53,658 nt of DNA from Candidatus Woesearchaeota archaeon (GTDB lineage Archaea; Nanobdellota; Nanobdellia; SCGC-AAA011-G17; JACPNG01), in assembly GCA_018303365.1 (NCBI GenBank), contig JAGVYI010000008.1:1-53658 (forward strand). Direction: 5' to 3'. Under the pieces are notes generated by a model. It was not told the DNA's origin. It worked only from the letters and a program-made list of their open reading frames with translations, and did no database searches. The position numbers and the translations under genes were made by a program. Positions within the stretch are counted from its first letter, which is position 1. Each line of letters begins with the position of its first letter. Below are positions 42,025 to 52,548 of the stretch, in pieces.

Positions 42025-42291
42025 ATGCTATTGAAACTAATGGGGCTTATGGACCTCCTTTGCGCAATCACCCTCTTTTTCTTACACTTTGGTCTTTTCA
42101 AGGTCTTAGGGTGGGTTTGCTTAGGTTACCTTGTTTTAAAAGCATTGATGTTTATAAACTCTTGGGCGACATTGGTCGATGCTTTAGGGGTAGTTTTTAT
42201 TTTCCTTGCAATTTTTGGAGTCTTTGTAACTCCTACCTGGATTTTTGTGTTTTGGTACTTCCAAAAAGGCTTGTTTAGTATGTTCAGCTGA
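42025..42291 (+). CDS. Small membrane protein, conserved in DPANN
   Basis: The 88-residue protein has four tightly packed hydrophobic segments (LMDLLCAITLFFLHFGLF, VLGWVCLGYLVLKALMFI, LVDALGVVFIFLAIFGVFV, WIFVFWYFQKGLFSMF). Similar small proteins beginning MDLL and ending WxFQKGxFS are, in my memory, widespread and uncharacterised in DPANN genomes. Start ATG 42025 sits 25 bp from the shared box. It overlaps the convergent M50-like gene by 8 bp. Transport or membrane-shaping function is unknown. Confidence 0.65.
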   Translation: MLLKLMGLMDLLCAITLFFLHFGLFKVLGWVCLGYLVLKALMFINSWATLVDALGVVFIFLAIFGVFVTPTWIFVFWYFQKGLFSMFS

Positions 42292-43078
42292 ACCGCCAAT
42301 ACATGCTAAGTGCAACAATAACCACAGAAAAAGAGCCGCTCAAAAGTACACTTGTAATTCCTCCTGCAAAAAAAGACAGTACGAAAAAAACAACAGAAAA
42401 ACTAAACCCAAATATATACAGGAAGTTTGACCCGAAGAATATTTTTGCTCCATCAAGGTCAGAAAATGGAATAAAACTAAAAAGTGCAATTAAAGCATTT
42501 ATCAATATGACTTCGCGAAAAAAAGTTGGTGAAAATGTCTGGAGCACAGCAGCGAAAAAAATATTTGCAAGAGGCCCCCCAAGCGCAATAATGCCTGTTT
42601 CATAACCCCCAATATTCTTGAAACTCCTTCCAACTCGTCGCAGTGGTTCCTCAAAGATTTCAAACCTCTCTACAGAAAGGAAGTATCCCTTTCCAAGTGA
42701 GAGGAGTGTAACAAAGAAACTAAGTAAGAGCCCCAATGGAATGTAAGTAAGGACATAGCCCTTGCCAAAGAAATTGAATCTCATCGGGCACTTTGTCCTT
42801 TTCGCAAACCCATAGCGTTGGATTCCCCATGTTCTATATTCGGTTGTTGCTCCATAACGTTGAGCCATCCACTTATGCCCTATTTGGTGTATGAGAAATG
42901 CAACAAGAACAACAACAAAGGTCTTCAAAAAATTGAGAAGCCAGTGTATGGTTGAGAAGTTGCTTCTTCCATCATCGAAAGCAAACGCAAATGTTACAAT
43001 GAGCACAGAAATAATAAGGAGTTTGAGTTCATGGGTGTTGAAATTTATGGTACTGTTTGAGAAGCCTGATGACACCAT
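42284..43078 (-). CDS. M50-like membrane protein with degenerate HExxH (HQxxH)
   Basis: The 264-residue protein has about six membrane helices and the layout of site-2-type proteases: FLIHQIGHKWMAQRYGA carries the zinc motif with Gln in place of the catalytic Glu, and IPFSDLDGAKIFF provides the Asp ligand region. Two His and the Asp are kept, so metal binding may persist without proteolysis. ATG 43078 is used; an earlier start would increase overlap with traB. It overlaps the traB gene upstream by 50 bp, so the two are probably co-expressed. A regulatory pseudoprotease is possible. Confidence 0.72.
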   Translation of the reverse strand: MVSSGFSNSTINFNTHELKLLIISVLIVTFAFAFDDGRSNFSTIHWLLNFLKTFVVVLVAFLIHQIGHKWMAQRYGATTEYRTWGIQRYGFAKRTKCPMRFNFFGKGYVLTYIPLGLLLSFFVTLLSLGKGYFLSVERFEIFEEPLRRVGRSFKNIGGYETGIIALGGPLANIFFAAVLQTFSPTFFREVILINALIALFSFIPFSDLDGAKIFFGSNFLYIFGFSFSVVFFVLSFFAGGITSVLLSGSFSVVIVALSMYWRFS

Positions 43079-43703
43079 CTTCATGACCTGCGCCGATGAC
43101 GGCAACAACTGTTTGTTCAGATTGAATGAGTTTATATAGGTTTCTTGCAAGTATCCTGTCTCGTTCATCAATAATTACCTTGTATATTGATGGATAATCT
43201 TGCTTTACCTTTTCAATAAGTTCAAGGATTACTTTCTTGCTAGGAACAGATTTGATATCAAAAGGAATCTTCTGGCGCCGGAGTAAACTAGTAAAAATTT
43301 CTTTTATGAAACGAAGGCGTTCTGTCCATGTTAATTGCTTAGAGATTCGCTTCAAGGTGGTTCTAATGTCTCTATCAATCAAGGCAATCTTCGCGTTGAC
43401 CTCTTTTGCACTTCTAACAGCTTGGCGCATCTCATCTCCAGGTCGGACATGAACAATATCCCCCAATTTTCTTTCAACCCACGCACCTATGACTCCCATA
43501 ATATACGCGCGAATACCAATTTTTACAATGTCCTTAAGGTTTAGTGAACGTTTTTTCAAGAAAAGAGAGTGCAATCGAATCAAGTCTAGTTCTATCGCCA
43601 CTACCCCCGGCCTATTCTTTTCAATAACCTCCCGCACTTTTTGGATGCTTTTGGCAGATATGTGGGATGTACCGACAAGGGTCAAGTTCTTAAACCGGTA
43701 CAT
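43029..43703 (-). CDS. TraB-family protein
   Basis: The 224-residue protein matches the TraB/GumN/PrgY group: NLTLVGTSHISAKSI at the start, VVAIELDLIRLHSLF, a central helical part, AKIALIDRDIRTTLKRI and a final VVAVIGAGHEDGV. The two GxxH/GH motifs and conserved Glu suggest a Tiki/EreA-like metal hydrolase fold. The length is short compared with full archaeal TraB proteins, which have C-terminal membrane helices; here the overlapping M50-like gene may supply the membrane partner. Confidence 0.85.
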   Translation of the reverse strand: MYRFKNLTLVGTSHISAKSIQKVREVIEKNRPGVVAIELDLIRLHSLFLKKRSLNLKDIVKIGIRAYIMGVIGAWVERKLGDIVHVRPGDEMRQAVRSAKEVNAKIALIDRDIRTTLKRISKQLTWTERLRFIKEIFTSLLRRQKIPFDIKSVPSKKVILELIEKVKQDYPSIYKVIIDERDRILARNLYKLIQSEQTVVAVIGAGHEDGVIRLLKQYHKFQHP

Positions 43704-43770
43704 AACAGAGAGAAATCTTTATATAGTTTAAAAGAATTGTCGTTACTGAAGCGGAAAACCGGAGGCAAAA

Positions 43771-44043
43771 ATGTTGAGGACAAGAGAAATAACAGGTGTC
43801 TATGATATGAGGGTATATACTGACATGGGGGATTATTTCGGGGATGTGGAAGAGGTTATCCTCACAACAAACAAAATTTTCGGATGGAGAATAAAAGCAA
43901 CAAGGTCATCCTTTCTCACAAAAGTACTTGGAGGAGCAAAAGGAGTTATTGTCCCTCATCAACTAGTCAAGGCAATCGGGGATGTTATGATTATCAATAA
44001 ATCAGCCATCCCTTCTCATGAGGAAAAAGAAGAAAAAGATTGA
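43771..44043 (+). CDS. PRC-barrel domain protein
   Basis: The 90-residue PRC-barrel (MLRTREITGVYDMRVYTDMGDYFGDVEEVILTTNKIFGWRIKA, then KGVIVPHQLVKAIGDVMIINKSAI) has a Glu/Lys tail. A clear Shine-Dalgarno CCGGAGGC lies 5-6 bp before the ATG, and the TATA-like TTTATATAG is about 49 bp upstream, so this mRNA has a leader. It opens the rightward cluster that includes the three paralogous membrane proteins. Small archaeal PRC-barrel proteins can act in cell division; a role with the membrane machinery here is open. Confidence 0.8.
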   Translation: MLRTREITGVYDMRVYTDMGDYFGDVEEVILTTNKIFGWRIKATRSSFLTKVLGGAKGVIVPHQLVKAIGDVMIINKSAIPSHEEKEEKD

Positions 44044-44073
44044 TTGTAATCCTTGTAAGGAAAAAAGAGGCTC

Positions 44074-44604
44074 ATGGCATCACCACTAGAAAATGCAGTC
44101 CAGTTCTTAATTGATTTTGGTTTCTTTGATGTCATTCTGCCTTTTCTGTTGGTCTTTACAATCATCTTTGCGGTCTTGGAAAAGACAAGAATTCTTGGTG
44201 CTGAAGGAGATAAAGAGAAAGCAAAGACAAATATTAATTCATTGGTCGCATTTACAATCGCTTTGTTTGTAGTGGCAACAAAAGAGATTGTTCGTGCAAT
44301 ACAAGTTTCCCTTCCACAGGTTGCACTTATCTTAATAATTCTTATAAGTTTTCTTCTACTCGCAGGATCCTTTATGAAAGATAAGTTTAGTCTAGAAGAG
44401 AGGGGATTTTGGAAACACTTCCTCACCATAACGTCTTTTCTTGCAATAATAACAATATTTTTAAATGCATTCGGTTGGTTAAATCCAGTGCTTGATTACA
44501 TCCGGGACAAGTGGCAGGATACCTTTGTGGTCTCCATAATCTTCCTTGGTGTTGTTATCGGCGCAATTTATTTTGTAATGTCAGGAAAGAAAAAAGAGGA
44601 TTGA
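44074..44604 (+). CDS. Five-helix membrane protein, paralogue 1 of 3
   Basis: The 176-residue protein has an N-terminal amphipathic segment and about five membrane helices. Its signature PFLLVFTIIFAVLEKTRILG (residues ~23-42) is repeated with variation in the next two genes (PFLLIFTLSFAILEKSGLL; FVFTILFAVLEKTKILG), so they arose by tandem duplication. It is separated by 30 bp from the PRC-barrel gene and 6 bp from paralogue 2. The setting near a secretion ATPase and T2SSF platform suggests a membrane part of the pilus-like machine. I recall such triplets in DPANN genomes but know no function. Confidence 0.7.
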   Translation: MASPLENAVQFLIDFGFFDVILPFLLVFTIIFAVLEKTRILGAEGDKEKAKTNINSLVAFTIALFVVATKEIVRAIQVSLPQVALILIILISFLLLAGSFMKDKFSLEERGFWKHFLTITSFLAIITIFLNAFGWLNPVLDYIRDKWQDTFVVSIIFLGVVIGAIYFVMSGKKKED

Positions 44605-44610
44605 TAGTTT

Positions 44611-45162
44611 ATGGCAGACTTAGTCGAGATTTTCAGCTTTCTAGAGGATGTGGGTGCGTATGAAATCGCTCTCCCCTTCTTGCTCATTTTCACCTTGTCC
44701 TTTGCAATCTTGGAAAAGTCAGGTCTACTCTCAGATAAGAATAGGGGTATTAATGTTGTTGTTTCTATTATTCTAGGGTTGCTTTTCGTGAGGAATCAGT
44801 TTCTCGTAGCCCTTATTGGTAGGTTCCTGCCAAACATATCTCTCTTTATGGTTATCATCTTGATGTTTTTGCTTCTTATAGGTCTTTTCGGTGCGAAAAG
44901 TGATTGGGCAGGAAATTCCCTAGGGTTTGCGGCTATCGTTTCAGTGCTGTTCGTTATTTGGGCATTAGCGGAAGACTTCCTAGGAGAGAATGTAATCTCT
45001 ATTCCAAGCTTTCTTAGAAATATTACCCCCCAGACAAAGGCAACTGTTGTTTTCGTAGGTGTGTTCATCCTTATAATCTGGTTGGTCACAAAACAACCCA
45101 AAAATGAAGGACAAAAGAATTTCCTTGAAAAAATCGGTGAGGAGCTAAAAAAGTCAAGTTAG
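44611..45162 (+). CDS. Five-helix membrane protein, paralogue 2 of 3
   Basis: The 183-residue protein follows the same plan: an amphipathic start (MADLVEIFSFLEDVGAYEIAL), the signature PFLLIFTLSFAILEKSGLLSD, then four further helices (INVVVSIILGLLFV, ISLFMVIILMFLLLIGLFG, LGFAAIVSVLFVIWALAEDF, ATVVFVGVFILIIWLV) and a basic/acidic tail. It is 3 bp from paralogue 3. Divergence between the three copies is high outside the signature, so the duplication is old and they probably have distinct places in one complex. Confidence 0.7.
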   Translation: MADLVEIFSFLEDVGAYEIALPFLLIFTLSFAILEKSGLLSDKNRGINVVVSIILGLLFVRNQFLVALIGRFLPNISLFMVIILMFLLLIGLFGAKSDWAGNSLGFAAIVSVLFVIWALAEDFLGENVISIPSFLRNITPQTKATVVFVGVFILIIWLVTKQPKNEGQKNFLEKIGEELKKSS

Positions 45163-45165
45163 AAA

Positions 45166-45705
45166 ATGGCGACCCTTTTTGAAGGAGGTCTAATAGCCTT
45201 CTTGCAGCCTCTTTTCACATTTATCTTTGTTTTTACAATATTGTTTGCTGTTCTGGAGAAGACAAAAATTCTTGGTGGAAATAAAGGCTCGCACTCCCTT
45301 GTCGCTTTGGTCATCGCTATGTTGGTGATGCTAACCCCTGGTGTGGCAGAAGTCTTGAATATTTTTACCCCATGGTTTGTTGTCTTTATAATCTTTCTTA
45401 TATTCTTGGCCCTTATATTTATGGCCGTGGGTGTGAGCGGGGATAAGGTAACCGCTGCCTTTACACAAGATTGGGTAGCCTATCTTATAGGAATCATTGC
45501 AATTTTTGGAATTTTTGGTTTTGCATTCAGCAAGGTATTCGGGCCAGTACTAAGCGGGGCAACTGGTGCCCCAGGAGCAGAAGAAGGGTTTGGGTCAACA
45601 CTTGTAACCATCATTGTAAATCCAAAAGTGCTCGGAGCGCTTTTCATTCTCGTCATGGCGTCTCAGATGGTAAGACTCCTTTCAGGTCAATCAAAGTCCT
45701 CTTGA
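45166..45705 (+). CDS. Five-helix membrane protein, paralogue 3 of 3
   Basis: The 179-residue protein has the helix order of its two upstream neighbours, with FVFTILFAVLEKTKILGGNKG at the signature and a Gly/Ala-rich loop (GPVLSGATGAPGAEEGFGS) before the last helix. Its end overlaps the convergent coiled-coil gene by 15 bp. The three genes form one tight operon that stops where the two minus-strand coiled-coil genes begin. Confidence 0.7.
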   Translation: MATLFEGGLIAFLQPLFTFIFVFTILFAVLEKTKILGGNKGSHSLVALVIAMLVMLTPGVAEVLNIFTPWFVVFIIFLIFLALIFMAVGVSGDKVTAAFTQDWVAYLIGIIAIFGIFGFAFSKVFGPVLSGATGAPGAEEGFGSTLVTIIVNPKVLGALFILVMASQMVRLLSGQSKSS

Positions 45706-46305
45706 GGTGTCCCTGTTCGGACGCCCACGCAGAGAGTTCGTAATTTCAGAAAGTTCTTTAACATTGCTTGTGAGTGGTTGGATGATGTCTTGCAAGACTT
45801 TCTCAAGAGCCTTAATTTCAGAGCCAACATCTTCCATGTTTTTTCCATATTCACGTACGCGCCCAAGGACAGAGGTTTGAAGGTTGTCCACCCTGCTAGA
45901 AATACGAAGGACTTCCTGCTTAATCGCAGCGAGCTCATCATTAACCCTGCTCTTCCACACTTCAATGTCTCCGACACTCTCAAGAAGGTGCTGCCATTTT
46001 TCTTCAATAATGCTCTCAATAAGTTCTTCATTCGTCGCCTGCGTATTTATCATAACAGGTTGCTGCATAGAAAACCCTCCAGATGAGGGTATACTAAATG
46101 ATGAAGGTGCTGCAGAACCGAATTCAGGACTGGATTGGGGTGGAGAAGGGACAGGGATCTCTTCATCCGGGATTTGCTGATCTAACATAGAGGGTTGCAT
46201 CCCTCTTTGGTCGCTATCCCAGCCCTGTGAACCTTGATAGGGGGGTACCTGCATTGCTTCGTTATATTCAGCCTTATCCTGTGTTTTGTTCTTGTTCTCT
46301 ACCAT
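45691..46305 (-). CDS. Coiled-coil protein with disordered N-terminus
   Basis: The 204-residue protein has a Gln/Pro/Ser-rich disordered first half and a C-terminal helical coiled coil (EEKWQHLLESVGDIEVWKSRVNDELAAIKQEVLRISSRVDNLQTSVLGRVREYGKNMEDVGSEIKALEKVL). No membrane helix. A position between membrane triplet and secretion ATPase suggests a cytosolic partner, similar in place though not clearly in sequence to FlaC/D/E of archaella. Its start overlaps the upstream coiled-coil gene by 32 bp. Confidence 0.65.
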   Translation of the reverse strand: MVENKNKTQDKAEYNEAMQVPPYQGSQGWDSDQRGMQPSMLDQQIPDEEIPVPSPPQSSPEFGSAAPSSFSIPSSGGFSMQQPVMINTQATNEELIESIIEEKWQHLLESVGDIEVWKSRVNDELAAIKQEVLRISSRVDNLQTSVLGRVREYGKNMEDVGSEIKALEKVLQDIIQPLTSNVKELSEITNSLRGRPNRDTSRGL

Positions 46306-46663
46306 CGGCCCCCTCTGCTAAAATTCGTTTAACTTCTTCATGTGTAACAAATCTAAGTGGATTCCATAGTTTAATATATTTTTCTAAGATCGTAACATTC
46401 TCCTTCCTGGCAAAGTACTGCATTTCCCCAACAAGGTTTTTGAGAATTTCTTTAACATGCTCCATTTCTTCCTGAAGTTTTTTCATTGATGCTTCGATAT
46501 TTTTTACATCTTCAACAATTAACTTATATTCAGAAATCATATTTTTGTTGATAACAAGGAGTCTCTCTCCGAAAAGGTTGTATTTACCCTCAAGAACGCG
46601 AATACGGGCGTTCAAATCATTAAGAATATAAGAAAGGTCTGCATAATCTTGTTGTTGCGCCAT
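46274..46663 (-). CDS. Coiled-coil protein, conserved DPANN type
   Basis: The 129-residue protein is a long helix pair (YILNDLNARIRVLEGKYNLFGERLLVINKNMISEYKLIVEDVKNIEASMKKLQEEMEHVKEILKNLVGE) with a C-terminal motif ILEKYIKLWNPLRFVTHEEVKRIL. The WNPLxFVTxEEV end is a feature I recall in DPANN homologues and, loosely, in FlaD/E-like proteins. It is divergent from the secretion ATPase gene across 87 bp, with the downstream coiled-coil gene overlapping it. Probably a cytosolic component of the same machine. Confidence 0.68.
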   Translation of the reverse strand: MAQQQDYADLSYILNDLNARIRVLEGKYNLFGERLLVINKNMISEYKLIVEDVKNIEASMKKLQEEMEHVKEILKNLVGEMQYFARKENVTILEKYIKLWNPLRFVTHEEVKRILAEGADGREQEQNTG

Positions 46664-46750
46664 AGGGAATGAAAAACTATTTAATAAAACTTAACTGCAC
46701 AAAACGGGTGTGAACTATTAAACCTTGTGTGAGTTTTTTATAGTGGTAAA

Positions 46751-49021
46751 ATGGCAACGGAAGCCGAATCAAAAAGGGGATATGAAATAATCAAGGAAGG
46801 TGATGAAGAAGTTTTGCGCATCAACGCGCTTAACTGGAACTTTACCCCCTCTCTAGAAGATAGTCCGATCTGTATGGGTCTGACCATAGACTACCTTGTC
46901 GAATCCCCAACTGTATCAAGAATTATTTTCTCGCAACGAAGAAATTACACTTATAGCTATGAGCAGACAAGGCTTCTTCAGGAGATTGCAAACCTCTATA
47001 AGATGTTAAGTAAGCAAAAAAAAGTTATTAGCCTTGCAAGCCTTTCGCTTGACCCTAACTGTGCTTCCCTTGTTCCGCGCTGGACCGCAACATTACAAAG
47101 AATAATTAGTTCCTTGCTTCGAACCGACCCGATAGGAGCTTATGTCGAGTTAAAACGTCAGCTACGTTCAGAAAATATATTTTTAAAAAAATCTCCTTTA
47201 GAACAGGTTGAGTGTTGCCAGTCCTACATCAATCTCTTAAATTATGTTGTAACACTACTTGAACAGACAAGGTTGGTCCAGCAGGTGAAAAGGGAGATTG
47301 CTGGTTATGCGTTAGGGGACAGAACAATATATGCTCAGATATTCAGACCAACAATAACCCCCAACTTTATGTTCACGCGCCTGATGGCAAGCCCCCCTGA
47401 AGATGGAATAATAAGGGAAGCATATGACCTAGGGAGCGCAGAGGTAAACATTTTTGAAACTCCTGATTCAGTAAGGCCACTTTACCATCTTACCCCACCT
47501 GAATTTAAACTTACAGAAGACAAGTATGCCATGCTTGACCTGGCACGCTCAGTTCTTGCAGAGCACAAGCCCCGTGACGAGGAGTTCCTTGAACCAGAAA
47601 GAATGCGTAGCACATTTTTCAATATTGGAAGGGATCTCCTTCAAGAGCTGGCAGAACAACGAAATGTAAATATTGGTTTCCAGGAAGTCAGTGAGATGGC
47701 AGAGATTTTAGTGCGTTATACAATCGGATTTGGACTGATAGAGACCCTTCTTCAAGATGAGCGGGTGCAGGACATTGTTATTAATGGGCCAATAGGGCAG
47801 ACACCAATCTTCATCGTACATCAACAGTTCGATGAATGCGTAACAAACCTTATACCATCAAGAGAAGATGCAGATTCGTGGGCATCAAAGTTCAGGATCC
47901 TTTCAGGCAGGTCCCTTGATGAAGCGAACCCCATCTTAGACACAGAACTTTCTATTCCAGGCGCCCGCGCCAGGGTGGCAATTGTGCAAAGTCCGCTCAA
48001 TCCCCATGGTCTTGGGTACTCATTGCGCCGCCACAGGGATAAACCCTGGACATTAACCCTTTTTGTAGAGAATAGAACAATAAACCCCCTTGCTGCGGGT
48101 CTTCTTAGTTTTCTCATTGACGGAGCAAGAACAATTCTTTTTGCAGGAACTCGCTCTTCTGGAAAAACCTCCCTTCTGGGAGCTACACTTATCGAGATTA
48201 TGAGAAAGTTTAGAATAATTACAATCGAAGATACGTTAGAGCTTCCAACAGAGGCGCTTCGTACTCTTGGCTACAATATTCAGGCGATGAAAGTCCGTTC
48301 AGCATTGACAAAAGGCGGGGCTGAGGTTCCGGCAGATGAGGGTATCCGCGCATCTTTAAGGATGGGAGACAGTTCTCTTATTGTTGGAGAGATCCGCTCT
48401 TCAGAAGCATTTGCACTCTACGAGGCTATGCGCATAGGTGCCCTTGCAAATGTTGTGGCTGGAACTATTCATGGAGATTCTCCTTATGGTGTATTTGATA
48501 GGGTAGTCAACGATCTAAAAGTTCCAAAAACATCCTTCAAGGCAACAGATGTTATTGTGATTTCTAATCCAATAAAAAGCGCTGATGGTCTTCATCGTTG
48601 GCGTCGCGTCCTGCAGATAACGGAAGTGAGGAAACACTGGGAAGAGGACCCTATTGCCGAAAGAGGGTTTGTTGACTTAATGCGTTACAATCCAAAGACA
48701 GACGAACTAGAGCCAACCCCAGAACTCATGAATGGAGATAGCGAGGTTCTTAAAGCCATAGCAGGTAATGTCAAGGAATGGGCGGGAGATTGGGATGCAG
48801 TATGGAATAATATCATGCTTCGAACAAAAATAAAAGAGACAGTTGTCGACTATGCAAGAAAGTACACTCGCTCAGAACTTCTTGAAGCAGATTTCACAAC
48901 AACCATGAACGATGCTTTCCACAAGATCTCTAGTCGGGTAAGGGAAAAGTCAGGGAAATTTGATACTGAAAAAATATTTGAGGAATGGCACACGTGGTTC
49001 AAAGAGAAAGTAAAGAAGTGA
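46751..49021 (+). CDS. Type II/IV secretion system ATPase (GspE/TadA/ArlI family)
   Basis: The 756-residue ATPase powers assembly of pilus-like filaments. The N-terminal ~330 residues are a large family-specific region. The core has VQDIVINGPIGQTPIFIVH, the Walker A GTRSSGKTS near residue 465, the Asp box IITIEDTLELP, Walker B-like SLIVGEIRSSEAFALYEAM and the His box VVAGTIHGDS. A C-terminal extension of about 100 residues follows. The gene is followed by the platform gene 25 bp later. This pairing is the minimal core of archaeal type IV pili, archaella and Tad-like systems. Confidence 0.92.
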   Translation: MATEAESKRGYEIIKEGDEEVLRINALNWNFTPSLEDSPICMGLTIDYLVESPTVSRIIFSQRRNYTYSYEQTRLLQEIANLYKMLSKQKKVISLASLSLDPNCASLVPRWTATLQRIISSLLRTDPIGAYVELKRQLRSENIFLKKSPLEQVECCQSYINLLNYVVTLLEQTRLVQQVKREIAGYALGDRTIYAQIFRPTITPNFMFTRLMASPPEDGIIREAYDLGSAEVNIFETPDSVRPLYHLTPPEFKLTEDKYAMLDLARSVLAEHKPRDEEFLEPERMRSTFFNIGRDLLQELAEQRNVNIGFQEVSEMAEILVRYTIGFGLIETLLQDERVQDIVINGPIGQTPIFIVHQQFDECVTNLIPSREDADSWASKFRILSGRSLDEANPILDTELSIPGARARVAIVQSPLNPHGLGYSLRRHRDKPWTLTLFVENRTINPLAAGLLSFLIDGARTILFAGTRSSGKTSLLGATLIEIMRKFRIITIEDTLELPTEALRTLGYNIQAMKVRSALTKGGAEVPADEGIRASLRMGDSSLIVGEIRSSEAFALYEAMRIGALANVVAGTIHGDSPYGVFDRVVNDLKVPKTSFKATDVIVISNPIKSADGLHRWRRVLQITEVRKHWEEDPIAERGFVDLMRYNPKTDELEPTPELMNGDSEVLKAIAGNVKEWAGDWDAVWNNIMLRTKIKETVVDYARKYTRSELLEADFTTTMNDAFHKISSRVREKSGKFDTEKIFEEWHTWFKEKVKK

Positions 49022-49046
49022 TCTTTGCTGCAAGAAGAGGGTTGTA

Positions 49047-51281
49047 ATGCCGCCAATTCAAAAAGACGAAATCGCCGAGATTCTTAAAAAGTATGAATCA
49101 AGATTAAAGCAGCAGGTTTCTATTGAAGGTGTTGATATTCCCCCTTCAGATACCTTTTCACGTGAGTATGAAATCTTCCGCGAAGAAGCACTAAGCGGCG
49201 CCAACACGTTTTATGAAGATGTATGTCAGAGTGCAGAGAAGATCTTCTCGGTCAGGGGAAAACCAGAAGAAGAAGAAGCGCTTGCAAACTCTATTGAAAT
49301 CTCTCACTTAAACATCACCCCCAGGGGTGCGCAAAGTTTTGGAGTCCTGTTCGCTTTGGTGGTAATACTAGCAGCGATTATTCTTGGAGTCGGTCCTGCG
49401 GTTTTGGCTATCCTCTTTGGAGGGGAAGCAACCGTTAGTGCATTTATAGATGATATTAATTTAGGTATTTCAATCGCCCTTATACTTGCAGGTGCATTGA
49501 TTATAAAACCAGCTGCAAAAATTCCGCATTATATAGCAAATCGCTGGCGCCTCAAAGCATCAAACCAGATGGTACTGTGCATACTATATGTAGTTATGTA
49601 TATGAGGCACACATCTAACCTTGAACATGCAGTTAAATTTGCATCCCAGCATATCGGAGACCCTCTTGCTTTAGACCTTAGAAAAGTTTTCTGGGATGTC
49701 GAAACCTCTAAATTTAGCACAATAAAGGGAAGTCTTGACCATTATCTTGAAAGGTGGTACGAGTCAAATCTAGAATTCATCGAAGCATTCCACCTGATTG
49801 AAGAGAGCCTTTACGCTCCAAGAGAAGAAAAGAGACTGGAGCTTCTTGACAAATCCATTGAAGTTATGTTAAGCGGCTCATATACAAGTATGCTTCACTT
49901 TGCGCAAGACCTTAAAAGCCCGATTACAATCCTTTACACACTCGGTATTATCCTGCCCATACTTGGATTGGTAATCTTTCCACTGATAGCGAGCTTCTTG
50001 CAAGGAGCGGTCAAGTGGTGGCATCTTGCCTTACTTTATAATGTTGGACTTCCACTCTTCGCTTTCCTTTATGGAAGCAGTCTTCTATCAAGAAGACCAA
50101 CAGGCTACGCTTCCTCTGATGTGTTAAAAACTCACAAGAAGTATAGCCAGTATGGAAAGTTAAAGGTGGACATTGGTACAAATTCTCTCTTCATAGACCC
50201 TAAATACCTCGCAGGAGTCATAATTTTCTTTTTCCTTGTCATCGGGTCAATGCCTCTTCTTCTATTCTCACTTGACCCAAGTCTCAACGACATCGCCTTT
50301 GCCAAGGGAACTGTGCTTGAGTTGCGCCTGCTAGACTACAAATGTACCCAGCAAAAGTGCACCGGGCCATTTGGAACGGGAGCCTTGATCCTAAGCCTAT
50401 TTATTCCCCTTGGAGTCGCACTTGGTATGGGCACATATTATCGGATTAAGACAAAAGAACTTCTGAAAATTCAGAAGAAAGCAGATACCCTTGAAAAAGA
50501 GTTTGCAGGAAGTCTTTTCCAGCTTGGAAATAGGATAGGAGAGGGCATGCCTGTTGAACTTGCTGTCGGAAGGGTATCCGAAACCCTTCGTGGAACTCCG
50601 ACAGGGGATTTTTTCCGCTTAACAAGTATCAATATACGAAAGTTGGGGATGAGTCTGAAAGAAGCTATTTTTAACAAAGAAAGGGGGTCTGTTCTTTACT
50701 TTCCGTCAGGTCTGATCGAAAGTACAATGCGTGTGGTTATTGAGTCTGCACAAAAGGGTCCACAGGTTGTATCAAAAGCACTTGTGAGCATCTCAACCTA
50801 TCTTGACAGGATTCAGGCAGTAAACGAGCGCTTGAAAGACCTTCTTAGTGATATCATCTCGTCGATGAAAAGCCAGACAAGCTTTTTAACTCCGATGATT
50901 GCCGGCATTGTTGTTGCAGTCTCTTCAATGGTTGTTACAATTGTCAATAAGTTAGGCGAGCAGTTCAACCAAGCAGGTGTTGAAGGGATTTCGCAGCAGG
51001 AGCTCAGTCAACTTGGAAACATCGTAAAACTTCTTGACATAGCAGATGTGATTCCAAGTTTTCATTTTCAGCTAATCGTTGGCTTGTTTGTTGTAGAGAT
51101 TATAATCGTACTTAGCATTCTAAGCAGTGAGATTGAGTCCGGGGCTGATAAGCTAACAGAGCAAGCAACAATTGCAAAAGGTTTGTTTTTCGGTGCAGCA
51201 CTCTACTTTGCTATCGCCCTTATAGGAATAATTGTATTTAATATCCTTGCAAACGGAATCAATCCCACAGGTCTTGTTTAG
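49047..51281 (+). CDS. Type II secretion F (T2SSF)-like platform protein, duplicated
   Basis: The 744-residue membrane protein has two T2SSF-type halves. An N-terminal cytosolic part is followed by a helix pair (LFALVVILAAIILGVGPAVLAILF; ISIALILAGALII), the first cytosolic helical domain (about 180-300), membrane helices (ILYTLGIILPILGLVIFPLI; LLYNVGLPLFAFLYGSSLL; YLAGVIIFFFLVIGSMPLLLF; LILSLFIPLGVALGMGTYY), the second domain (EFAGSLFQLGNRIGEGMPVELAVGRVSETL) and three terminal helices. It is the inner-membrane platform for the ATPase upstream, equivalent to ArlJ/TadB-C. The fused double form is typical for archaeal pili. Confidence 0.9.
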   Translation: MPPIQKDEIAEILKKYESRLKQQVSIEGVDIPPSDTFSREYEIFREEALSGANTFYEDVCQSAEKIFSVRGKPEEEEALANSIEISHLNITPRGAQSFGVLFALVVILAAIILGVGPAVLAILFGGEATVSAFIDDINLGISIALILAGALIIKPAAKIPHYIANRWRLKASNQMVLCILYVVMYMRHTSNLEHAVKFASQHIGDPLALDLRKVFWDVETSKFSTIKGSLDHYLERWYESNLEFIEAFHLIEESLYAPREEKRLELLDKSIEVMLSGSYTSMLHFAQDLKSPITILYTLGIILPILGLVIFPLIASFLQGAVKWWHLALLYNVGLPLFAFLYGSSLLSRRPTGYASSDVLKTHKKYSQYGKLKVDIGTNSLFIDPKYLAGVIIFFFLVIGSMPLLLFSLDPSLNDIAFAKGTVLELRLLDYKCTQQKCTGPFGTGALILSLFIPLGVALGMGTYYRIKTKELLKIQKKADTLEKEFAGSLFQLGNRIGEGMPVELAVGRVSETLRGTPTGDFFRLTSINIRKLGMSLKEAIFNKERGSVLYFPSGLIESTMRVVIESAQKGPQVVSKALVSISTYLDRIQAVNERLKDLLSDIISSMKSQTSFLTPMIAGIVVAVSSMVVTIVNKLGEQFNQAGVEGISQQELSQLGNIVKLLDIADVIPSFHFQLIVGLFVVEIIIVLSILSSEIESGADKLTEQATIAKGLFFGAALYFAIALIGIIVFNILANGINPTGLV

Positions 51282-51323
51282 AAAAAGAAAAGATTTATTA
51301 GCATGAATATCAGGGAAAAATAA

Positions 51324-51605
51324 ATGACCTTTCATCGTAAAAAAAATCCCAAGAGGAAAAACGATGTCTTTGAAAAAATAGGTGTTGTCTTTACAATCAC
51401 GGCCGGAGCATTTTTGCTTGCCATTCTTACAACAACCCAGATAACTGGTTCAAGTGTTTACCAAGGACCTATAAGTCAGGGAACAAGACTGCTGCAAGCA
51501 GGAATATTCTTTGTTGTCATCCTTGCCTTTGTTTATTACCTCTTTTACAGGATCTTCAACCATTATGAACATCATCACCGCGCGAAAGGTTTATATAAAT
51601 ATTAA
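51324..51605 (+). CDS. Small two-helix membrane protein
   Basis: The 93-residue protein has a basic start (MTFHRKKNPKRKNDVFEKIG) and two membrane helices (VVFTITAGAFLLAILTTTQI and LLQAGIFFVVILAFVYYLFY), then a His-rich, basic tail (HYEHHHRAKGLYKY). The short hydrophilic segment between helices (TGSSVYQGPISQGTR) would face outside. It has no pilin-type signal (no Gly/Ala followed by Glu at the +5 position after cleavage). A TATA-like TTTATTAG lies about 35 bp upstream. It precedes the 51621 gene by 15 bp. Confidence 0.65.
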   Translation: MTFHRKKNPKRKNDVFEKIGVVFTITAGAFLLAILTTTQITGSSVYQGPISQGTRLLQAGIFFVVILAFVYYLFYRIFNHYEHHHRAKGLYKY

Positions 51606-51620
51606 AGAGGAGTGCATCTG

Positions 51621-52343
51621 ATGAAGAGGGGAAAAAAGAGGTCAAAAAGAAATCATCTTATTGCCCTTGTCGGTGCCCTCCTTGTTTTCGCTTTGTATTT
51701 AGTCACTGAAAGTTTCACAGGTCTGCCTATTTTTGAAACAGATCAATTCTCAGGTGGTCTTGGTGGTGGTTTTAGTGGAGGATTCTCTCCCTATGGCTAT
51801 GGGGGTGATTTTGGGTTTCTTAACATTCTTGATTTATACAATCAGTTTCCATCTTGGATTGACTTTGGTTTGTTTCTTGCAATATTTCTTGGTCTTGGTA
51901 TGAGTGTTTTCGGAGAACATTTTGATACTCAAGGGGGAAAAGCAGTCTATACTGGTCTGGCGATTTTCCTTGCATTGGCACTTCTGATTTTTGAACAAAG
52001 GACGGGCATACATTTAATTACCTTCTTTTCAAGCGTCGGTTTTGCAATTATAGTCCTACTTATCTCAGTATTCATTTTTAAGTGGATTCATCAAGCCTCA
52101 GGTAGCTCTATCCTTGGAACTACTGTTGGTTACGTATTCTTCTTCATTTTTGCATCTCCGCTCCTTGGTTGCGGGTCAGGAGCAAGTGGTTTCCAATTTT
52201 CTTCTGCAAGTAGTTTTATTACCTTTGATGCACTATCTTTTATATACAGTTACGTCCCGTTTTTTTGCCCACTTATGTATGCCCTTTTTCTGTTTAGTAT
52301 CTTCGTAGGAGCCTGGGGGGTAGTTAAATTAGCATTCCCATAA
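51621..52343 (+). CDS. Multi-helix membrane protein with Gly-rich loop
   Basis: The 240-residue protein has a basic start and about six membrane helices. A Gly/Phe-rich extracytoplasmic loop (SGGLGGGFSGGFSPYGYGGD) follows helix 1. ATG 51621 is favoured over GTG 51612 because GAGGAGTG lies about 6 bases before it. Later helices are FGLFLAIFLGLGMSVF, GLAIFLALALLIFEQ, VGFAIIVLLISVFIFKW, TTVGYVFFFIFASPLLGCG and PLMYALFLFSIFVGAWGVV. It is part of the 51324-52548 operon, located right after the secretion core, so it may be an accessory subunit. No family recognised. Confidence 0.65.
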   Translation: MKRGKKRSKRNHLIALVGALLVFALYLVTESFTGLPIFETDQFSGGLGGGFSGGFSPYGYGGDFGFLNILDLYNQFPSWIDFGLFLAIFLGLGMSVFGEHFDTQGGKAVYTGLAIFLALALLIFEQRTGIHLITFFSSVGFAIIVLLISVFIFKWIHQASGSSILGTTVGYVFFFIFASPLLGCGSGASGFQFSSASSFITFDALSFIYSYVPFFCPLMYALFLFSIFVGAWGVVKLAFP

Positions 52344-52353
52344 TGGAGGTTAA

Positions 52354-52548
52354 ATGAGAATAATTATTATTGTCTTCGGTCTTCTGACAACCTTTGCAGG
52401 TGTTTGGCCTATTCTGGTAGAGAGAGGGTTTGCTCCGCTGAATCTGCTGTTCATTCCAGCTTCAGGCACATTCTATTATGGAATGGTCACAGCGATAGGG
52501 CTTTTAACTCTGCTTTATGGATTGAAGAAATCTTATCACTACACCTAA
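52354..52548 (+). CDS. Small two-helix membrane protein
   Basis: The 64-residue protein consists of two hydrophobic helices (IIIIVFGLLTTFAGVWPILV and FYYGMVTAIGLLTLLYGL) joined by a short loop (ERGFAPLNLLFIPASGT) with a basic end. A strong Shine-Dalgarno (GGAGGT) lies 4 bp before the ATG and the gene follows the previous one by 10 bp. It ends the rightward cluster. Function unknown. Confidence 0.65.
   Translation: MRIIIIVFGLLTTFAGVWPILVERGFAPLNLLFIPASGTFYYGMVTAIGLLTLLYGLKKSYHYT

Follow-up and report, generated by a model that had tools for sequence, protein, structure and literature searches.

We analyzed a 53,658-nt stretch (hereafter, the window) of contig JAGVYI010000008.1 (C8) from the Candidatus Woesearchaeota archaeon genome GCA_018303365.1 (702 kb, 22 contigs, 91% complete), which carries a cluster of seven core genes that probably encode the motor of a type IV filament system together with its membrane base. 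The cluster starts with three tandem genes for paralogous membrane proteins with five transmembrane helices (TMs), T1 (44074..44604, + strand), T2 (44611..45162, +; 6 bp past T1) and T3 (45166..45705, +; 3 bp past T2), followed on the opposite strand by the genes for two cytoplasmic coiled-coil proteins, CC2 (45691..46305, −) and CC1 (46274..46663, −), which overlap by 32 bp. After an 87-bp gap, a gene divergent from CC1 encodes a 756-aa secretion/pilus ATPase (ATP; 46751..49021, +), and 25 bp past it lies the gene for a 744-aa membrane platform protein with two T2SSF domains (PLAT; 49047..51281, +). Every gene named in the first-pass annotation of this stretch, which had been made by a model from the letters and open frames alone, is an open frame in the place assigned to it. 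The 16S rRNA of this genome is 82% identical to that of another archaeon and ~79–80% to those of Woesearchaeota and Pacearchaeota, on which basis we claim a placement in Nanobdellota only.

The arrangement is conserved well beyond the window. We examined 60 Nanobdellota loci around the ATPase gene, from 147 sampled genomes of the phylum, and found T genes flanking the ATPase gene in 46 of them, usually exactly three; in the other 14 genomes, the T genes sit at a different site, and wherever that site was mapped they are again in tandem. The order T>T>T> CC2< CC1< ATP> PLAT> is shared by Nanobdellota, Aenigmatarchaeota and Nanohaloarchaeota, in the last case with three to six T genes, so that the comparison of gene order across DPANN bears out the proposal, initially made from position, that the triplet goes with the ATPase/platform pair rather than occurring mostly away from it. 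Over 90 loci, the widely recurring families are the ATPase (90 loci), the platform (79), CC1 (72), T (70 loci, 199 genes) and CC2 (65), whereas the next neighbor families reach at most 20. Beyond M50-type protease, PRC-barrel and TraB genes, the identified neighbors are mostly housekeeping (tRNA synthetase, UvrB, translin, GatE) or lineage-specific.

At the genome level, the T profile matched 269 of 279 Nanobdellota, all 57 Aenigmatarchaeota and 33 of 34 Nanohaloarchaeota genomes, compared to 2 of 78 in Micrarchaeota, both marginal (~1e-4), indicating that it is not a generic matcher of membrane proteins. Copy numbers, tallied by hand for the 269 Nanobdellota genomes, were three in 194, four in 34, five in 8, two in 29 and one in 4. 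When named genomes of many archaeal phyla were sampled through a 16S pattern, T was present in all Woesearchaeota as well as in Pacearchaeota, Parvarchaeota, Nanohalarchaeota and Aenigmatarchaeota genomes, with no convincing match in the Micrarchaeota, Euryarchaeota, TACK and Asgard genomes of this sample. A filament system with this gene set is thus probably confined, among the archaea sampled, to DPANN cluster 2.

The ATPase, for which a GspE/TadA/ArlI-type assignment had been proposed, indeed matches Pfam T2SSE (6e-14) and combines intact nucleotide-binding motifs (Walker A GTRSSGKTS and a VGEIR box) with a ~295-aa N-terminal extension. Its best named models are TadA/CpaF and FlaI, both under their cut-offs (for FlaI, 126 bits against a curated cut-off of 550), and, among solved structures, CpaF is a close relative that ranks behind A. 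fulgidus GspE. ATPases of this family are hexameric. A match to the ATPase is present in 146 of the 147 phylum genomes, nearly always full length and ~45–66% identical over ~750 aa. The platform protein of the window itself has no Pfam match; its orthologues carry T2SSF in the N-terminal half (residues 177–304 in L240 and 188–319 in L278) and in the C-terminal half (434–564 in L246 and 409–502 in L090), which is why we, like the first-pass annotation, assign it a double T2SSF architecture.

Two peculiarities of these genes were recorded. In ten genomes (G048, G059, G076, G084, G122, G143, G013, G095, G024 and G011), an insertion, in frame and probably an intein, splits the ATPase gene around residue 497, giving frames mostly of 1263–1423 aa (1966 in G011), and a similar insertion occurs in Micrarchaeota genome G149. 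In the Nanohaloarchaeota locus L278 (G150:C80), a single ATPase gene lies between two platform genes (PLAT< ATP> PLAT>).

T1, T2 and T3 are true paralogues: iterative searches, whichever of the three served as the seed, converged on one set of 140 proteins in 47 loci. The shared FxFTxxFAxLEK-type signature noticed in the window reappears as the consensus PFLLVFTIxFAxLxKTKxxG (also written PFLLxFTxxFAxLxKTKxxG) over 131 sequences. In trees of Nanobdellota proteins, T1, T2 and T3 form separate lines holding 43 of 43, 41 of 41 and 44 of 44 members, respectively, the T1 line being monophyletic, and a second tree places 57, 55 and 59 of 60 members within their own lines; the triplication is therefore older than the radiation of the sampled Nanobdellota. 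AlphaFold2 models show five membrane helices in T1 (predicted local distance difference test score (pLDDT) 90.8) and T3 (86.6), with the same helix order, in accord with the description of the triplet as old tandem duplicates of a five-helix protein. The structures yielded no Foldseek match at E<0.9 in the PDB or in a viral structure library, and no Pfam or NCBIfam family, other than generic membrane matches, is consistent across members, so that the T family, as far as sequence and modeled structure can tell, is without any characterized relative, and the triplet stands, as first suggested, as a conserved membrane part outside standard pilus models. Homology of T to the platform (hhalign probability 0.4%) and to the VirB2/TrbC-like Mbov_0395 family (a match in 3 of 131 members alone) was considered and rejected.

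Basic residues of the T proteins are concentrated in loops 1 and 3 and at the C-terminus, as in positive-inside loops, and several Aenigmatarchaeal and Nanohaloarchaeal members have Sec-type signal peptides ahead of TM1, both pointing to an N-out, C-in topology. With this topology, the signature and the K..N loop following it would end in the cytoplasm, on the side occupied by CC1, CC2 and the ATPase. The most conserved segment of the family is this cytoplasmic end of TM1 together with the next basic loop.

CC2 and CC1, read from the outset as coiled-coil proteins on the strand opposite to T and the ATPase, are real and conserved genes. CC1 has a conserved C-terminal motif, LEKYxxLWxPxxFVTxxEV; considered as a counterpart of ArlC, it matches FlaC_arch in 6 of 57 members (best E 0.002), possibly as a generic coiled-coil match; alignment of CC1 with CC2 reaches an hhalign probability of 78%, but over the coiled coil alone, and is uninformative on homology. 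The CC2 consensus includes an N-terminal helical motif, GxxNxQIIxxLQxxGYxxxQIxDA, which the CC2 of the window seems to lack. In loci where T and the ATPase are separated, CC1 still adjoins the ATPase, whereas CC2 is found beside T in G072, G115, G090, G145, G094 and G142, and beside the ATPase in G097, G077, G042, G099 and G126; G099, for instance, has a T-T-T run and, apart from it, a CC2-CC1-ATP-PLAT run. Because CC2 occurs with either half after separation, it is likely to be a partner shared by the T half and the ATPase half.

In agreement with the first-pass annotation, no product of the locus in the window has a class III signal. The idea of a machine without a pilin finds no support in its relatives, in which a co-directional array of prepilin-like genes directly follows the platform gene. 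Judged by a single fixed rule for a class III-like N-terminus, applied to 63 loci, prepilin-like genes made up 55 of the 235 genes that lie downstream of the platform in the same direction, but none of the 390 located on the opposite side (p=5e-26). Such genes occur downstream of the platform in 21 of the 63 loci, with three or more in 11, and the arrays are found in both Nanobdellota and Aenigmatarchaeota.

One family of array members is defined by an N-terminal motif, KKGQxLSxNTIIxAI, and six conserved cysteines (six-Cys pilin). Of 261 genomes, 248 gave a match of some kind to its profile, although many of these matches cover the N-terminal pilin helix alone and may be other pilins. A match to this family lies ~4–12 kb from the ATPase gene in at least 14 genomes (G074, G145, G133, G044, G057, G093, G021, G031, G141, G017, G107, G116, G114, G109 and others), and, in the family of the window, ~140 kb away in G082 and G098. 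The lack of a pilin gene in the window most likely reflects a rearrangement at this locus rather than a feature of the system as a whole. Prepilin peptidase was detected in 38 of 40 relatives, including the genome of the window (G000:C7:957-1283, E 1.5e-9). That genome also has a second, canonical pilus locus, L279 (G000:C13:24000-43900), where a canonical ATPase and TadC are encoded together with large secreted proteins and several pilin-like proteins of the class III type, for example KRGISPLIATVLILGFTVALGVLI. The following traits of the type IV filament superfamily are thus present: an ATPase with intact motifs, a T2SSF platform, prepilins linked to the locus in relatives, and a prepilin peptidase.

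Taken together, these observations lead us to propose, as the probable function of the locus, that a hexameric ATPase, acting beneath the double-T2SSF platform, builds filaments out of class III prepilins, which would be processed by the prepilin peptidase encoded outside the locus. Many relatives encode the prepilins directly 3' of the platform, and in the family of the window the array would have been relocated. T1, T2 and T3 may form a fixed hetero-oligomeric scaffold in the membrane beside the platform, with the cytoplasmic end of TM1 and the adjacent basic loop as the likely docking site for CC2 and CC1, which in turn would tie the scaffold to the ATPase. The presence, in some Nanohaloarchaeal T proteins, of a fused C-terminal helical, coiled-coil-like tail is consistent with such a connection. 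A bolder version, in which T1–T3 with CC1 and CC2 constitute a previously unrecognized filament base complex of a new fold, ancestral to the three phyla and serving as a host-gripping or bridging machine, is conceivable, but we put it forward only tentatively.

Several observations weigh against a filament system with a T scaffold. In 42 of the 63 loci, including that in the window, no recognizable prepilin gene lies within reach downstream of the platform, and the best six-Cys pilin match in the genome of the window is weak (E 5.7e-4). The T tree does not settle the orthology of T1–T3 between the three phyla, and the separation of T from the ATPase in 14 of 60 loci leaves room for an independent function of T with CC2. 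The missing prepilins, here and in many Woesearchaeota-type loci, would be accounted for if the ATPase and platform drove non-filament export, or membrane bridging, through a pore made of T1–T3, and the encoding of three paralogous multi-TM proteins indeed resembles the logic of an export gate. The search for such a resemblance, however, gave FliPQR in Foldseek only at E 4.9–8.2, that is, no match, and we did not adopt this explanation, which we regard as unlikely, because prepilin arrays follow the platform gene in relatives.

The loci with remote T genes, the ability of CC2 to travel with T alone and the PRC-barrel gene preceding T1 in ~18 loci, mostly from one order, could instead suggest that T1–T3 and CC2 form an envelope or cell-division complex that merely neighbors the pilus genes. 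Such independence is hard to reconcile with a juxtaposition conserved over three phyla and with the five genomes listed above in which T is remote, yet CC2 stays beside the ATPase. Moreover, among the 147 genomes, T is absent from 3 of the 6 without the ATPase versus 1 of the 141 with it (Fisher p 1.5e-4), a co-absence that could partly reflect the loss of one contig. We therefore consider an unconnected complex to be quite improbable. A weak profile match of T to NuoJ, a five-TM subunit of complex I (E 1e-4), raised the notion of ion-conducting, stator-like units coupling membrane potential to the machine, but NuoJ was not found by Foldseek, leaving the match without structural support, and the conserved charges avoid the mid-membrane, being placed in the cytoplasmic loop and where the helices end, making a stator role very improbable. 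On balance, we favor the filament system with a T scaffold and its coiled-coil partners.

In the ATPase tree, all cluster 2 DPANN ATPases of this type form one clade (ultrafast bootstrap (UFBoot) 86), sister to Micrarchaeota (100), within a wider clade (97) that also includes Methanosarcina, Haloferax, Haladaptatus, Methanomassiliicoccus and Thermoplasmata; the second, canonical ATPases encoded by those genomes fall elsewhere in the tree. Subclade 4F of the archaeal type IV pilus ATPases (Makarova et al. 2016) has an extra N-terminal domain and occurs in nanoarchaea without identifiable cognate pilins (PMC4858521). The grouping with Methanosarcina and Haloferax ATPases and the N-terminal extension fit this subclade, in which we would tentatively place the locus ATPase by its relatives rather than by reference 4F sequences; in contrast to the published description, the locus adds T1–T3, CC1, CC2 and candidate cognate prepilins. 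Two pilus-like loci conserved among cluster 2 DPANN have been reported by Hamm et al. (2024), who list Nanohaloarchaeota, Woesearchaeota, Pacearchaeota, Nanoarchaeota, Aenigmarchaeota and Undinarchaeota as carrying them (PMC11291902). Their Locus 2, with a CpaF-like ATPase, a TadC-like platform, coiled-coil proteins and no pilin, appears to correspond to ours in gene content and phyla as described, whereas the T triplet, the fixed order, the downstream prepilin arrays and the relation to 4F do not figure in the main text of that work. Thus, the core locus appears to have been partly known, and the T triplet and the linked prepilins appear to be new.

Other filament systems share parts of this design. 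The Tad/CpaF pilus likewise has a CpaF-related ATPase and paired T2SSF domains, but in the locus both T2SSF domains are in one polypeptide and the T and CC proteins are new; no further Tad part was identified for the locus. The archaellum (ArlIJ/ArlCDE) employs an ATPase and a platform of the same superfamily together with short coiled-coil cytoplasmic partners, but the locus ATPase scores far under the FlaI cut-off, and neither ArlH nor archaellin was seen in the locus.

In the window, positions 42284–44043 upstream of T1 encode an M50-type protease, a TraB/PrgY protein and a PRC-barrel protein (43771..44043, +; Pfam PRC 8e-06), an arrangement shared by most loci from the same taxonomic order. 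The PRC-barrel gene ends 30 bp 5' of T1 and is likely co-transcribed with it; given its restriction mostly to the order of the window, we treat it as an order-level accessory and not as part of the core. On the other side of the cluster, three further membrane proteins had been proposed as parts of the machine; the corresponding open frames exist (51324–51605, 51612–52343 and 52354–52548), but they are not conserved components: among the 60 loci of relatives, homologues of them occur in 0, 2 and 1, respectively.

T proteins also occur outside the triplet. The genome of the window contains a lone fourth, T2-like paralogue at G000:C4:10697-11197 (L302), and similar single extra copies are present in G097, G072/G155, G124/G153 and G154. 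One T protein of the Aenigmatarchaeota genome G206 (L308:9803-10756) combines a Sec-type signal peptide with a fused Peptidase_S74 domain at its C-terminus (PF13884, 8e-17), an endosialidase-chaperone domain familiar chiefly from the tail spikes of phages. Nanohaloarchaeota possess a second T subfamily (L321, L323, L329 and L332), 246–306 aa long, whose C-terminal tails are helical and coiled-coil-like; some members have signal peptides, and the genes stand either close to the main locus or by themselves.

Cluster 2 DPANN count many obligate ectosymbionts among them; the protein composition of the structures by which they attach, such as the organelle of the Nanobdellota representatives Nanobdella aerobiophila and YN1, is unknown (PMC11104419, PMC11420986). 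It is this lifestyle, along with the unexplained make-up of that organelle, that suggests to us a role of the locus in host contact, and a pilus-type motor present throughout the phylum is a plausible contributor to the organelle. That almost all genomes of the three phyla, many of them small and reduced, have kept the machine makes it likely to be central to the life of these cells. The linked prepilins address the gap left by nanoarchaeal subclade 4F ATPases without identified cognate pilins (PMC4858521), and the locus provides named genes for tagging, localization and imaging in cultivated DPANN-host pairs. Its pilus-type motor is a concrete candidate for the means by which these tiny, mostly host-dependent archaea might touch their hosts.

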